Shown here: positions 35,247 through 40,572 of the stretch, one piece after another
How positions within the stretch are numbered: the stretch's first letter is position 1
Layout: each line of letters opens with the position of its first letter
Assembly (NCBI GenBank): GCA_035544955.1
Contig: DASZZN010000012.1
Span: forward strand, 62,001 to 126,000
Origin: Candidatus Dormiibacterota bacterium
Lineage (GTDB): Bacteria > Chloroflexota > Dormibacteria > CF-121
DNA length: 64,000 nt
Reading direction: 5' to 3'
The notes under the pieces: model-generated
Databases searched by the model: none
Told to the model about the DNA's origin: nothing
Seen by the model: the letters and a program-made list of their open reading frames with translations, nothing else
Made by a program: the position numbers and the translations under genes

Positions 35247-35309
35247 CTCAGCTGGTAGAGCGCGACCTTCCCAAGGTCGATGTCGCGAGTTCGAGTCTCG
35301 TCTCCCGCT
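35237..35309 (+). tRNA. tRNA-Gly (anticodon CCC)
   Basis: 73 nt cloverleaf: acceptor GCGGGAG/CTCCCGC, D-arm GCTCAGCTGGTAGAGC, anticodon stem CGACC/GGTCG with loop TTCCCAA (anticodon CCC), T-arm GCGAG-TTCGAGT-CTCGT, discriminator T. No CCA is encoded. The 3' part (35285-35309) is the left end of an integrated element, whose other end carries a second copy at 40548. The tRNA remains intact. Confidence 0.95.
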
Positions 35310-36864
35310 CTCTGGAACCAATCGTGGTGAGGAGCTCCTCGAAGTAGGGAGCCCAGCCGGGACGAGGGCGGATCCCGGCGATCCGCCGGTCCCGGACCTG
35401 AATTTCCGAAAGGATGCTGGCTACCAGCCGGCCTCGCTGCGAAAGGTCGGCGTCCGTCCAGGCGGCCATCAGGTCGGTGAGTCGGGCCGAGAACTGTCGG
35501 ATGGTGGGCACCTCCGGCTGCGCCTTGAGCTGGGCCAGCTGCGCTTCGATCACGGTGACGCTGTCCCGAAACTCGCTTTCCGAAATCAGCCCCATCTCGA
35601 ACACCAGCGCGGTTCGTTTGCGTCGGCCCTCGAGCTCCTTGGCGGTGCGTCGTTCGTCCCATTCGCGCGGCAGTGTTTGGCGCTGACGCATGCCGCGCTC
35701 GACCAGTGCCTGCGCCGCGTCCTCCAGGCGCTCGTCTGGATGGCACTTGGCAAGCCAGCCCGCCAGTTCGGCCTCCAGCGCGTCCGCGCGGGCCAGCGGG
35801 GCCTTGCAGCTGGCGTAGCGGTGGCGATCCGAGCAGACGTAGTAGCGGATCGCATGGCCCGAGTCGCCATGGCTGGTGCCGCGCATGGAAGCGCCGCACT
35901 CGACACAGCGTAGCAACCACGACAGCGGGAAGCGCGAGCCCAGTTTGCGAGACCGCACGCCGGCGATCTTTGCCGGCCGGTGTCGCGTCCTGATCTCCTG
36001 GCAGCGCTGCCAGACCTCGCGAGAAACAATCGCCGGCAGGTCGCCAGCCATCGGTGATTGGTCCTCACCGCGGAGACGCGCCTGCCGGCCGATGTCACGC
36101 GGCACCGGCAAGAGCCCGGCGTAGGTGGGTCGCTTCAGGATCTCCTTCAGCACGTCGTTGGACCATAAGACCGCCGGCGCCTTCGCGTTGCCGCCCTTGG
36201 AGCAGATGGGCTTGATCGCCTGGCTGTTCAGCCAGATGGCGAGCGTGCGGAAGGAGTAGGCGCCGGTGGCATAGCGTTCGAAGATCAGCCGAATCGTGGG
36301 GGCAACGGCCTCGTCGACGACGACCGTGCGCTCGGCACTCCGGACGTAGCCAGCCGGTAGCGAGCCCAGCAGTCGGCCCTGGCTGCGAAGGTGACCGAGC
36401 ATGTCGCCCACGCGTTGCGAGGTCTGTTCGCGCTCCAGTTGGGCAAGCACCGCCAGGATGCCGAGGAAGGCGCGTCCCATCGGGGTTGCGGTCTCGATCG
36501 GCTCGGTGGCGGAGACGAAGCCAACCCCGACGTCGTCGAAGCGCTGCAGCGTGTCGTAGAGGTCACGCACCGACCGCGAGAGCCGGCTGACGCTGTAGCA
36601 GGCGACCAGCGCCACGTCGCCCTGGCGCAGGCGCGCCAGCATCCGTTGGAAGTCGGGCCGCTTGGTGCTCTTGCCAGAAAGGTCGAGGTCCTGAAAGGCC
36701 TCCACCGTCAAGCCTGCCAGCGCTGGCAGCGCTTTGCAGCGGTCGAGTTGTGCCGCCGGGCTAATCTGATGGGCGTTCTCGTCGTACTTCGAGACGCGGA
36801 CGTAGACAAGGGCGGTGCTTCGGGTGCGATCGCGTGCTGAAGGCGATGCGAGCGAACGACTCAT
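35248..36864 (-). CDS. large serine recombinase (integrase)
   Basis: 538 residues. Catalytic domain with YVRVS (Ser25), ACYSVSRLSRS and LGILAVLAQLERE; recombinase domain from about 165 (GYVRSAERT...); zinc ribbon CVECG...CSD..YASC near 315-345; coiled coil about 385-450. Such integrases carry phage-like elements into one att site. The last ~19 codons, including the stop, are read from the antisense of tRNA-Gly, so the C-terminus changes when the element is excised. It is the obvious integrase of the element 35285-40572. It overlaps the small upstream gene by 4 nt. Confidence 0.93.
   Translation of the reverse strand: MSRSLASPSARDRTRSTALVYVRVSKYDENAHQISPAAQLDRCKALPALAGLTVEAFQDLDLSGKSTKRPDFQRMLARLRQGDVALVACYSVSRLSRSVRDLYDTLQRFDDVGVGFVSATEPIETATPMGRAFLGILAVLAQLEREQTSQRVGDMLGHLRSQGRLLGSLPAGYVRSAERTVVVDEAVAPTIRLIFERYATGAYSFRTLAIWLNSQAIKPICSKGGNAKAPAVLWSNDVLKEILKRPTYAGLLPVPRDIGRQARLRGEDQSPMAGDLPAIVSREVWQRCQEIRTRHRPAKIAGVRSRKLGSRFPLSWLLRCVECGASMRGTSHGDSGHAIRYYVCSDRHRYASCKAPLARADALEAELAGWLAKCHPDERLEDAAQALVERGMRQRQTLPREWDERRTAKELEGRRKRTALVFEMGLISESEFRDSVTVIEAQLAQLKAQPEVPTIRQFSARLTDLMAAWTDADLSQRGRLVASILSEIQVRDRRIAGIRPRPGWAPYFEELLTTIGSRERETRLELATSTLGRSRSTS
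35285..35309 (+). other. attachment site attL (in tRNA-Gly 3' end)
   Basis: T-arm and 3' acceptor strand of tRNA-Gly. Matches 40548-40572 in 23 of 25 positions; the longest core (CTCGTCTCCCGCT) is identical. Confidence 0.8.
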
Positions 36865-37154
36865 GTCAGGACGGCATCATCACGCGTTGCTTCTGACGCG
36901 TCAAGACTTTTCATCGCCTTCGACCGCTGCATGGTTCCGGTGACTTCAGCCTGAGCGGGAGACCTGACTTCCCGCTCGACCGGAGATGCGCCACGCAAGA
37001 GCCGGCACTGACGCGATAGTTCAATCTCCACGAGGACCTCAAGGGTTTCGATCACGTCAGGAGGGAACTCGGAGATCCCTGTGGCCGGGGGGCCGAAGTC
37101 CGACCCCTGCCGAATCAGAGCACCTCGCCGCCGCCCGGCCGGCGTTCCCACCAC
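36861..37154 (-). CDS. small hypothetical protein of the element
   Basis: About 97 residues from a GTG at 37154 (or 96 from 37151). It contains EFPPDVIETLEVLVEIELSRQC, a helical stretch, and basic/polar tail; no family is recognised. Its stop overlaps the recombinase start (ATGA), which argues that it is translated. The true start is uncertain, as it would overlap the end of the upstream gene by about 40 nt; no ribosome-binding site decides it. Confidence 0.4.
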   Translation of the reverse strand: MVGTPAGRRRGALIRQGSDFGPPATGISEFPPDVIETLEVLVEIELSRQCRLLRGASPVEREVRSPAQAEVTGTMQRSKAMKSLDASEATRDDAVLT

Positions 37155-38359
37155 CCGGGCGTGCCGATGCAGTCGCTGATCGTCCTTTCCGACTTCTCGT
37201 AGGGCGGCAGCTCCGTTAGCCGCCGCCGCGGCATCGTCACAACCTCCCTGCGCGGTGGCGGCGGCCATCCATGCTCTGCCTCCACCTCCTCGGCCGCGCA
37301 CCAGAGTCGACCCAGTGGACCCTCAACCTCCAGGCGCTCGACGCTGGAGGTCCAGAATCGGCAGGAATCCTCATCGAGCTCGTCCTGGATGATCGGACGC
37401 AGGGCCTCTTCTCGAGAGGCTCGAGAAAGCACAAAGAGGACGTGAACCCGATCGGCATCGCGCAGGTCCTTGAAGTAGCGCACCGAAGTCCGCACCTTGT
37501 GTCGAAGGCGGCTCATCGAGGCCGCGCCCCGGTCCCACTCCAGGTCGAACCGGATGATCCGACCGCCAACCAGGTACCAGCCAGCCCCGTCGGGCGTGGC
37601 CACCGGTCGTCGGTTTTCCTTGGCGAAGAGCCGGCGATCAGCGCGACAGGTTTCCTCGCCCACCCAGCGGAGCAGCCCCTCCCGCATGCCGAGCCGGCTG
37701 GCGAGCACCAGGTCGATGAAGTAGCCGTTGGCCTCGAGGTCGTGGACCACATGCCAGCAGTGGTCGCGCGCATCCTTGGCCCGGTGGACGTAGGGCCATG
37801 GCGCCTCACCGTGGAGGTCGGCGAGGAGCTGGGCGCCCCGAGGCGTGATCAGAACGAGCGACGGGCGGCGGGTCACGCCGGGGGATTCGAACATCTTCCA
37901 GCGGTAGACAAGACCGTGGTGCCTGAGGTACTGCAGCCGCAGCTGGGTGGATCGAATGCTGGGGAAGAAGATCTGATGGATCTGGAGGGTGGTGAGGTAG
38001 CGGTAGTCGTAGAGGGATTGGAGGATAGCGCGGTCTCGCTGGGTGAGGGACAAGAGAAGTTGAGTCGTCTGCTCCTGGGTGAGAGGAGTGGTGGTGTGCT
38101 TGGGCATCGAGCGAAGAATGAAAGGACGAGTGGGAATAGGAGTCCGTCCCGGTGTGAACGCGGAAGAGGGCTGAACTCGCGGCTGAATACTCAGCGACCT
38201 CCTTTCACCCTTCGCTCCCTGAAACGAAGACCTGGGAAGCGAAGGGACAGAAGCGTCGGCCGAAACGAAGTCCCGACGGTCATCGATTGAACCCACGTCG
38301 TCATCGAGCCCAGGCTGTTGTTGAGGACTCGGCTCGCTGTCGCGGAGGTAACGCATCAC
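37115..38359 (-). CDS. replication-relaxation family protein
   Basis: Up to 414 residues. From MPKHTTTPLTQEQ (internal ATG at 38107) on, it matches the Replic_Relax (PF13814) pattern: RDRAILQSLYDYRYLTTLQIHQIFFPS followed by a winged-helix QLRLQYLRHHGLV and VLITPRGAQLLAD. This family is found on plasmids and integrative elements and is tied to plasmid replication or copy control. The N-terminal ~85 residues are low-complexity and may not be translated. Degenerate iteron-like repeats lie immediately upstream, so this is a likely replication initiator or regulator acting there. Confidence 0.75.
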   Translation of the reverse strand: MMRYLRDSEPSPQQQPGLDDDVGSIDDRRDFVSADASVPSLPRSSFQGAKGERRSLSIQPRVQPSSAFTPGRTPIPTRPFILRSMPKHTTTPLTQEQTTQLLLSLTQRDRAILQSLYDYRYLTTLQIHQIFFPSIRSTQLRLQYLRHHGLVYRWKMFESPGVTRRPSLVLITPRGAQLLADLHGEAPWPYVHRAKDARDHCWHVVHDLEANGYFIDLVLASRLGMREGLLRWVGEETCRADRRLFAKENRRPVATPDGAGWYLVGGRIIRFDLEWDRGAASMSRLRHKVRTSVRYFKDLRDADRVHVLFVLSRASREEALRPIIQDELDEDSCRFWTSSVERLEVEGPLGRLWCAAEEVEAEHGWPPPPRREVVTMPRRRLTELPPYEKSERTISDCIGTPGWWERRPGGGEVL

Positions 38360-38431
38360 GGCTGCCCGCCAGCCCTGGTCGGCCCTGGCTGCGTATCGTG
38401 TCCTGAGCCGTCGTCCGAATCCATCTATTGC

Positions 38432-38735
38432 TTAAAGAGTGGGCCCGGCGTCGGACTCACCTATCCCGTAAAGAGCGGCGGCGTTTCATGTATCCGTCAA
38501 AAGCCGGTCTCGCGGTCGTTTCGGCGCTCTACTTCTAAAAGAGCCGGTTTTGAGACACGTTTTGTTAAATCCACTCTTTAAAGGGCCTTTTCAGTGGGCG
38601 ATTTGGACGTGGGCATGTCGCTACCCCTATAGGGCGGGTTCTCGGCCACCTTTTGGGACATCCACCTCAACCTTGACAGTCTCTTGCTATTAAAGAGTGA
38701 GTTTTCGGCCCGTTCGTTTCGTGCCATAGAGCGGG
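38432..38735. repeat. cluster of iteron-like degenerate repeats, possible origin
   Basis: About eight copies of a motif close to TAAAGAGYGGG, at 38432, 38469, 38497, 38536, 38577, 38628, 38690 and 38725. An inverted copy CACTCTTTAA lies at 38572. Several are followed by GTTTTCGG or GGCGTTT. The spacing is 28-62 bp. The stretch 38360-38861 holds no convincing gene and is AT-richer than its surroundings. Lying upstream of the replication-relaxation gene, it may be the element's origin or a binding region for that protein. Confidence 0.5.
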
Positions 38736-38861
38736 AGTATCGTTGACTAGTCGTTAGATATGCGAATAGGAGCTCTAGTCGCGGCCAGTCCGTCAACTCG
38801 CCGGATTCACTCCAGCGGCATTCCACCCGAGTCGGGTGGTGCGAGCAGCCAGCGGACGTCT

Positions 38862-39083
38862 ATGCCGGCAGCGCGCTTCTTGACGATCGAACTGACGGCC
38901 GAGGGATTCTTTCTATTTCGATTTGCGGAAGACGGCGCATTCGCCGGTGACACGTGGCATCCAACAATCGAGGAGGCCAAAGATCAAGCAAATTGCCAGT
39001 ACGGAAACGCACTCGGAGGATGGCTCGATATCCCGGATAACGAGTCCGATGCCCTCGGGTGGCTCAGGGCCCGAGAGTCCTGA
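38862..39083 (+). CDS. small hypothetical protein, cassette gene 1
   Basis: 73 residues from ATG at 38862 (MPAARFLTIELTAEG...). Pattern: beta strand, GDTWHPTIEEAKDQANCQYG, LGGWLDIP..., as in small conserved proteins of unknown function whose members have W-H and Y-G motifs. A longer reading frame starts at 38760 but the added part looks non-coding. Repeat copy R1 follows its stop by 65 nt. Confidence 0.55.
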   Translation: MPAARFLTIELTAEGFFLFRFAEDGAFAGDTWHPTIEEAKDQANCQYGNALGGWLDIPDNESDALGWLRARES

Positions 39084-39148
39084 CGGACCAGATTGCTTTG
39101 AGCAGAATCAGCGCAGACGGGCGCGCTGTGAGGCCCGGAGACAGATAG

Positions 39149-39175
39149 TAGCCCGTGGAGGCCACTAATCGAACG
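39149..39175 (+). repeat. cassette repeat copy R1
   Basis: TAGCCCGTGGAGGCCACTA then ATCGAACG. Matches R2 at 24 of 27 positions. Flanking arms TAGC...GT / ACGCTA can pair imperfectly. Confidence 0.6.
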
Positions 39176-39249
39176 CTAGGAGTAGGTGCCGGAACCGCCG
39201 CACGGATGCGTTCTTCGAGTATGGCGGACCCACGAAAAAGAAGGACGCA

Positions 39250-39681
39250 ATGAAGCTATGGAAGGCGGGTGCGGCTGGGGCACTCCTACTGTGCGTCGTG
39301 GTCGGGAGCGCACTCGCTCTCACTAATCTAGGGAAAGGCCCTGGAACCCGGATCGAGCATCGGGGCAACACGATTGTCCTCCATGGACGAGGGACCGCTG
39401 CTGACCTTGGATACCTTCCGGCCGGCCGCTACCGTGTCACCGTAGAGGAAGGAGTGGGCGGCTGTGCAATCCGACTTCAACTCGCGGGGGCGGATGGAAA
39501 GGAATGGTTCAGGCTGGACTTTTACACCAACAACCGCGACTCTCCGACTGGGGTCACGGGCGAAATCCCAGGGCAGCAGTACAGCGTATATACGAACGTT
39601 TATTTCGGCGATGGCCTCACTTTCTCAACACCAGAGCCGGTAACCGATTGCGCGTGGACTTACGATTTCACACGGATTTAG
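39250..39681 (+). CDS. exported or membrane-anchored hypothetical protein, cassette gene 2
   Basis: 143 residues, N-terminal signal peptide or anchor (residues 1-24, KLWKAG then ALLLCVVVGSALA), followed by a beta-rich domain with two conserved-looking cysteines (about 75 and 137) that could form a disulfide outside. The ribosome-binding site AAGGA stands 5 nt before ATG. No family is recognised. GC content is lower than the chromosomal flanks. R2 follows its stop by 50 nt. Confidence 0.65.
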   Translation: MKLWKAGAAGALLLCVVVGSALALTNLGKGPGTRIEHRGNTIVLHGRGTAADLGYLPAGRYRVTVEEGVGGCAIRLQLAGADGKEWFRLDFYTNNRDSPTGVTGEIPGQQYSVYTNVYFGDGLTFSTPEPVTDCAWTYDFTRI

Positions 39682-39731
39682 GTGAGGCCAGCCCTTTCCT
39701 GGTGAAGGAGCCCTGGCAATGCCGCCAAATT

Positions 39732-39765
39732 AGGGTCATAGCCCGTGGCGGACACTAGTCGAACG
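39732..39765 (+). repeat. cassette repeat copy R2
   Basis: AGGGTCATAGCCCGTGGCGG then ACACTAGTCGAACG. TCATAGCCCGT pairs with ACGGTTATGA just behind it, giving an imperfect hairpin of about 10 bp with a 15-16 nt loop. Confidence 0.65.
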
Positions 39766-39802
39766 GTTATGACTCGTTCCCTTGAGTGGATCGTGGTAAA
39801 GA

Positions 39803-40345
39803 ATGGGGTACACCAGTTTGGACGAGCTACCGGCAAGCATACTGGCGGCTTGGCGTCATAGGATCGCGATGGCAGCATTAGCAGGGCCAGCAGACGAGGC
39901 AGCATCGGGAGCGGCCGGCCAGAACTCGGTTCTCCTTACGACGTCGTGCACTACCGGATGGGCCGACTGGGTGCACGGTGAGTTGTGGCTCTGCCCGGAT
40001 GGCCTGCTTCGACTCAGCCTCGGATGGGCAGCGACAATCGACAAGAGCTTCGGCCCAGGCCAGGCGGCCGCATTCGACGGCGCAGCGCGACGGTCAAGCC
40101 CCCGAGACTTCGATATGACTGAAATCAACGACCTGCTGTCTCGCAAACGGACCAACCACTGGATTCCGTGGGCCCAGATTCGTGGGGCCTCCCTCCGCGG
40201 CGGCCTGATTACCGGCCGCTTGCGCTTGAAACTGGCCGACGGTCGCTCCGTGAAGCTCCTATGGATGCGTGAGCGTCACGTGTTTGAAATGCTTCGTGAC
40301 CGGCTCCTCGAGCGACTCGGCCCGGCGGCTTTGCGAATCGGCTGA
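39803..40345 (+). CDS. hypothetical protein with PH-like features, cassette gene 3
   Basis: 180 residues, no signal peptide. GELWLCPDGLLRLSLGW, then HWIPWAQIRGASLRGGLI and RLRLKLADGRSVKLLW followed by a C-terminal helix (HVFEMLRDRLLERL) follow the strand order of a PH/GRAM-like domain of bacteria. Function unknown. ATG at 39803 is the only good start. R3 follows its stop by 46 nt. Confidence 0.6.
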   Translation: MGYTSLDELPASILAAWRHRIAMAALAGPADEAASGAAGQNSVLLTTSCTTGWADWVHGELWLCPDGLLRLSLGWAATIDKSFGPGQAAAFDGAARRSSPRDFDMTEINDLLSRKRTNHWIPWAQIRGASLRGGLITGRLRLKLADGRSVKLLWMRERHVFEMLRDRLLERLGPAALRIG

Positions 40346-40391
40346 CGCTGCCTTTCCCGGCAGCGCACCTTCCCACCAGATGACGGCTTTG

Positions 40392-40420
40392 AGGGTCATA
40401 GCCCGTAGCGGATTCGAACG
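40392..40420 (+). repeat. cassette repeat copy R3
   Basis: AGGGTCATAGCCCGTAGCGG then ATTCGAACG; shares the first 15 nt exactly with R2, and differs from it by one base and a 4-nt gap in the middle. Confidence 0.6.
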
Positions 40421-40547
40421 TATTGCGGTCTCCATAGCGCTCGCCAGACTGGACACGACGGTGGGTACGCCTCACACGGTTCCTGAAGAGGGGGTGAGTA
40501 AGGGTACGCTGTTGAGAAGCCCACGATATCCAGTCGCTGGTTCCTGG

Positions 40548-40572
40548 GCGGGTTCGAGCCTCGTCTCCCGCT
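40548..40572 (+). other. attachment site attR (tRNA-Gly T-arm and 3' end copy)
   Basis: GCGGGTTCGAGC then CTCGTCTCCCGCT: it repeats the 3' end of tRNA-Gly with two substitutions that keep the T-arm pairing possible. It probably is the displaced chromosomal 3' end of the tRNA gene. Confidence 0.8.

Follow-up and report, generated by a model that had tools for sequence, protein, structure and literature searches.

Three small genes lie in tandem on the forward strand of the analysed window, a stretch of 64,000 nt that corresponds to positions 62001-126000 of contig C12 in its own genome (G000; 3.67 Mb in 52 contigs), and each is trailed by a short repeat, with the motif TAGCCC found 53-65 nt 3' of the stops at 39083, 39681 and 40345. 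The gene of the first unit (38760..39083, +; 107 aa) is followed by R1 (39149..39175, +), a full cassette site of 27 nt with a putative crossover point within its first 8 nt (TAGCCCGT). Cassette 1 (39157..39746, +; 590 bp) contains a gene for 143 aa (39250-39681) and leads to R2 (39739..39765, +), a second full site of 27 nt; cassette 2 (39747..40406, +; 660 bp) contains a gene for 180 aa (39803-40345) and ends in R3 (40399..40420, +), a short terminal site that reads TAGCCCGTAGCGGATTCGAACG and is 5 nt shorter than R1 and R2. None of the three products belongs to a Pfam family, and no full site was found upstream of the gene at 38760..39083. A first-pass annotation of this DNA had correctly located the repeats at 39149-39175, 39732-39765 and 40392-40420, and we reproduced its identity of 24/27 between R1 and R2, although the gap that it gave as 4 nt in R3 measures 5 nt. 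Over 21 nt, R2 and R3 show 95% identity. The annotation took R3 for a third repeat; its position stands, but it is not a full repeat, because positions 40400-40419, taken as reverse complement, are the final 20 nt of tRNA-Glu(CTC), with unrelated DNA beyond them. The same end occurs in G005:C175 and, with one base changed, on contig C3 of the own genome. An Rfam scan of the window retrieved a tRNA-Gly as its sole match.

This mini-array sits within a larger element. Comparison with empty sites in G010 and G003 identified window positions 35289-40572 as a 5.3-kb insertion, bounded on the left by the 3' end of a tRNA-Gly(CCC) (35289..35309, +) and on the right by a 20/21-nt direct copy of that end (40552..40572, +). 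A large serine recombinase (35248..36864, -) and a replication-relaxation protein (PF13814; 37115..38359, -) belong to the insertion. As the mini-array is located inside it, the serine recombinase of the window most likely serves the insertion rather than the cassettes. A block of identity at a tRNA end is unusual for a serine integrase.

Using AGCCCGTGGCGGACACTANTCGAACR as a search pattern (26 nt, up to 3 mismatches) and the reversed pattern as a control, we obtained 16 matches in the own genome versus none with the control. All 16 are clustered on C12 (the window), C3, C4, C11 and C29, with five copies on the 3-kb contig C4, four on the 3-kb contig C11 and those of C29 within its first 2.8 kb, and differing small genes lie between the copies. 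The same pattern matched 10 of 120 related genomes; nine of these belong to the 14 sisters within the genus, and the tenth to another genus of the same family. A 42-column profile applied class-wide (110 genomes), with best per-genome E-values reaching 1e-13, was positive in 11 of the 14 sisters (weakly in G010 and G011) and in the same sister genus; outside the family this search gave nothing convincing, with a single borderline match (G041, E 9e-4 per genome). Zero matches to the cassette site were retrieved from the IMG/VR contigs and the plasmid and phage records searched. The repeat thus occurs far more often than expected by chance. The profile search, which the first-pass annotation had set as a check, found further copies behind many unrelated genes, and a restriction of the repeats to one triplet, or to three fixed genes, is contradicted by copies elsewhere with other genes. 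The genus genomes are apparent metagenome bins, 75-95% complete and with one genome per species, and strain mixture may explain part of the near-identical cassettes within one bin (C4, C11 and C29).

The main arrays end at a tRNA gene. In seven relatives, the final array site runs on as AGCCCGTAGCGGATTCGAACCGCTGATTTCTGCC..., which is an intact tRNA-Glu(CTC) read backwards, and every tRNA-Glu copy found at arrays is intact. The tRNA-Glu of the own genome lies at the extreme start of contig C16, and its array side is lost to the contig end. Internal sites and tRNA-Glu have in common TAGCCCGT and TCGAAC, with a spacing that is 5 nt longer in the internal sites, so that recombination further inward would break the tRNA. 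The internal cassette site is a conserved, diverged form of the tRNA-Glu end that is distinct from the tRNA itself.

When 14 tRNA-Glu loci were aligned, pairwise identity was 1.00 from the T of TAGCCC through the next 20 positions shown; outward of TAGCCC it dropped to 0.51 at the adjacent base and was mostly 0.2-0.4, near chance, farther away. For instance, G004 and G005 have 99.2% identity across 3 kb on the side of the tRNA, whereas their DNA is unrelated outward from the T of TAGCCC, and in seven more genome pairs the break falls 0-2 bases from that T. Both outer flanks of the tRNA-Glu array locus are syntenic between several species, indicating a single chromosomal locus with replaceable content. 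Arrays that end in a tRNA fragment, with no tRNA-Glu near, were found in the window, on C3, in G005:C175 and in G011:C67; located away from tRNA-Glu, they need an extra step, which counts against the cassette model considered below.

We delimited 39 cassette intervals, with a median of 610 bp and a range of 42-3230 bp. The longest ORF points toward the tRNA in 27 of 38 cassettes and away from it in 11, so that the shared gene orientation pointed out for the three genes of the window is, across the family, a mere tendency, and this looseness also counts against the cassette model. A Pfam scan assigned no family to most of the cassette products scanned; among the remainder are Imm1, GrpB, SnoaL, CAAX protease, DinB, PNPOx, an F420-dependent reductase, a metallo-beta-lactamase-fold protein and, below the cut-off, a DsrE-like protein. 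One cassette on C4 (L009:2553-2951) encodes an orphan Imm1 immunity protein (Pfam E 1e-23), of which a shortened copy exists on C11. Also on C4, a cassette (L009:1200-1942) holds in antisense an HTH_17 protein and, behind it, frames that look to the eye like a PIN-type toxin in broken form, an arrangement reminiscent of a toxin-antitoxin pair in which the PIN part is without Pfam confirmation.

Whole cassettes recur in differing surroundings, within one genome and between genomes. Cassette 1 has a copy with 88-89% identity on C3 that is bounded by the same sites, the similarity spanning R1 to R2 and then ending. Likewise, cassettes c5 (G000) and c33 (G005) show 84% identity, and c19 (G012) and c34 (G005) 88% identity, across the entire cassette, and c14 (G001) is 88% identical over 545 bp to c29 from another genus (G015); in the same genome pairs, core DNA next to the tRNA shows 71-73% identity, and the overall comparison is 84-88% for whole cassettes against 71-76% for core DNA. 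In G012 another cassette comes after c19, whereas in G005 the matching c34 leads into tRNA-Glu, and both right ends read GTGGTAGCCCGT. The bases that vary after TAGCCCGT travel with the downstream gene; this and the c19/c34 junctions place the probable crossover within TAGCCCGT. Together, these comparisons show that whole cassettes are exchanged between genomes and contexts. Junctions with genes swapped between repeats, for which the first-pass annotation had suggested looking, do occur, and its notion of gene plus 3' repeat as a cassette-like unit is borne out by the gain, loss and exchange of such units.

The sites share no conserved fold. As a set, 45 copies folded no better than shuffled versions, the mean z being about -0.2 to -0.3 for either strand, and RNAalifold returned three nearly invariant pairs with compensatory change absent. 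The imperfect hairpin described earlier is present at R2, but neither a conserved fold nor covariation extends across the 45 copies. In some of the sites, the inverted repeat AWTCGA-ACAN-TCGAWT looked like covariation and was discarded, since none was seen in the 45 copies, where it behaves as shuffled sequence. A clear GTTRRRY core had been reported as lacking, and indeed this motif appears, on either strand, in only 4 of 45 sites, the homologous stretch being GTTCGA. We likewise dismissed the repeat as an integron attC, as it resembles instead the 3' end of tRNA-Glu(CTC). Just upstream of TAGCCC, the right half-site recurs in inverted form (GTTCGAATAGTGT...) in L092 (near 3114), L059 (9190-9209) and L011 (near 191), and one such copy is found just outside the tRNA at the tRNA-Glu of the own genome (L085:150-178). 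These inverted half-sites, a minority observation, would be compatible with a recombinase core that was originally two-sided, with a second, inverted half-site at the right end of cassettes, and decayed in most copies.

Which enzyme moves the cassettes was approached through the gene content of the genomes. The fully assembled arrays of G014 and G015 contain no PF00589 gene at either end (the missing ends of broken arrays aside), in agreement with the earlier remark that a tyrosine integrase is absent beside the array, and no recombinase was found among the scanned cassette genes. A Xer-like protein is the sole PF00589 gene found in G001, G002, G004, G009, G012, G013 and G014; it is vertically conserved, and is 70-71% identical in G016 and G017, which belong to sister genera without detected arrays. 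A pattern search for the host dif gave background matches only, and dif was not found. The cassette recombinase would be supplied in trans, either by the host Xer or by a helper element, and we lean to the helper element. In the own genome the Xer-like protein has 327 aa and is encoded on C51. The own genome also encodes a 389-aa phage-type integrase (G000:C14:203084) and a broken tyrosine recombinase (C38:7853), neither of which lies near the arrays found.

The common site, the tRNA anchor and the sharp breakpoints at TAGCCC, as read from these genome comparisons, point to a mobile system of single-gene cassettes anchored at tRNA-Glu(CTC), a reading to which we assign a probability of about 0.82. 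Each cassette has a conserved left end, formed by GGCGGACACTAATCGAACA and some 8 weaker bases, and a right end consisting of TAGCCCGT, some tens of nucleotides past the gene. A putative circular intermediate would join both ends into a site that resembles the 3' end of tRNA-Glu, TAGCCCGTGGCGGACACTAATCGAAC, and the circle could insert either between cassettes or at the tRNA-Glu 3' end without breaking the tRNA. The exchange would be site-specific and conservative, taking place within the 8 bases TAGCCCGT that the sites share, probably with tyrosine-recombinase chemistry on double-stranded sites, and the tRNA-Glu end would be the counterpart of the integron attI. We rejected homologous recombination between sites because cassette site and tRNA junction have only 8 bp in common, which is too short for ordinary homologous recombination. 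More tentatively, and at somewhat less than even odds, the arrays could represent an independent, integron-equivalent capture system with a dedicated tRNA-like site, a recombinase acting in trans and short arrays that are also carried on mobile elements.

The arrays might alternatively be scars of successive islands targeted to tRNA-Glu (phages, ICEs or satellites), each deleted down to about one gene. This agrees with tRNA 3' ends being the usual target of such elements, with the 20-nt tRNA fragments at some array ends and with no integrase remaining near the arrays; we nevertheless regard it as improbable in view of the uniformly small units (median 610 bp), the recurrence of whole units in differing contexts and an internal site with a conserved form separate from the tRNA. 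Much less credit is due to a serine recombinase like that of the window as the agent of the cassettes, which the first-pass annotation had named as one possibility. It would be favoured by the presence of the window copy in the same insertion as the mini-array and by another serine recombinase on C3, whose end is 56 nt away from the terminal site there; however, PF00239 serine recombinases were found in just 4 of the 15 genomes of the genus, and are absent from 11, though arrays are found in most, and the window copy is that of the tRNA-Gly-bounded insertion, so that this proposal is very unlikely to hold.

It is just as unlikely that these are integron cassettes (CALIN) in which IntI would recognise the folded strand of an unusual attC. 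Gene plus 3' site, head-to-tail order and similar cassette sizes and types of cargo speak for it, whereas GTTRRRY in 4 of 45 sites, the lack of a conserved hairpin or covariation, an anchor that is a tRNA end and the failure to find a dedicated integrase speak against it. Least probable of all, terminators, REP-like repeats or a single duplicated region would account for the location of the repeats behind genes, but hardly for copies that are clustered and anchored at a tRNA, with no dispersed copies, no stable fold and differing genes between them.

By anatomy, the closest known kind is the additive flexible islands, where gene cassettes are added at a tRNA target and cassette ends are marked by fragments of the tRNA, known from Alteromonas (PMC4119200), 'Ca. 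Actinomarinales' (PMC7771536) and 'Ca. Methylopumilus' (PMC10872708). Both have a tRNA target, 3'-end fragments at cassette ends and a content that varies between close strains, and the movement of cassettes between genera described for additive islands (PMC4119200, PMC7771536, PMC10872708) is also seen in the tRNA-Glu arrays. Unlike additive islands, the tRNA-Glu arrays have units of about one gene, belong to a soil lineage and possess a separate internal site (5 extra nt) that is common across species, comparable to attC versus attI. By unit size and the dedicated second site, integrons are closest: the arrays share with integrons and CALIN (PMC9024848) single-gene units, a 3' site, head-to-tail arrays, an anchoring site and similar cargo, but are without the attC fold, GTTRRRY and an adjacent integrase, and tRNA-Glu replaces attI. 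The dif modules of Acinetobacter are small gene modules with short recombination sites, moved by the host XerCD (PMC13141974), and their recombinase is likewise encoded outside the module; in contrast, the arrays described here have a chromosomal tRNA as their anchor, and their sites all point in one direction. Tycheposons, as described in PMC10872708, are tRNA-anchored cargo elements of 4-200 kb with a tyrosine recombinase; the anchoring is alike, whereas the units here are mostly 0.2-1.7 kb and no recombinase was found. Judged against the open-access literature, the mechanism has a fair chance of being new.

The arrays look like an integron arrangement on a different site, with IntI not nearby, in soil bacteria that have received little study. 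The textbook example of single-gene capture is the integron; if the present reading is confirmed, cassette capture would have evolved more than once, and integron searches based on attC folding and IntI would overlook such arrays. The sharp breakpoint would in that case also offer a defined substrate for identifying the recombinase.

In G011:C67, an ectopic mini-array of two cassette genes known from the arrays of G014 and G012 (L155:8750-10010) ends in a degenerate short site; it is flanked by pyruvate dehydrogenase genes on one side and a serine hydrolase on the other, away from tRNA-Glu. The borderline match in G041:C33 (L166:9273-9303), from another family, is a single site with no tRNA within 3 kb and may be due to chance. 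Lastly, the first 136 bases of L131, from G019 in another family of the class, hold a tRNA-Glu(CTC) that lies at a contig end and is bordered on the 3' side by GGACACTGGTAGCCCCGGCGG, and this contig end is possibly a related array with another variant of the site.
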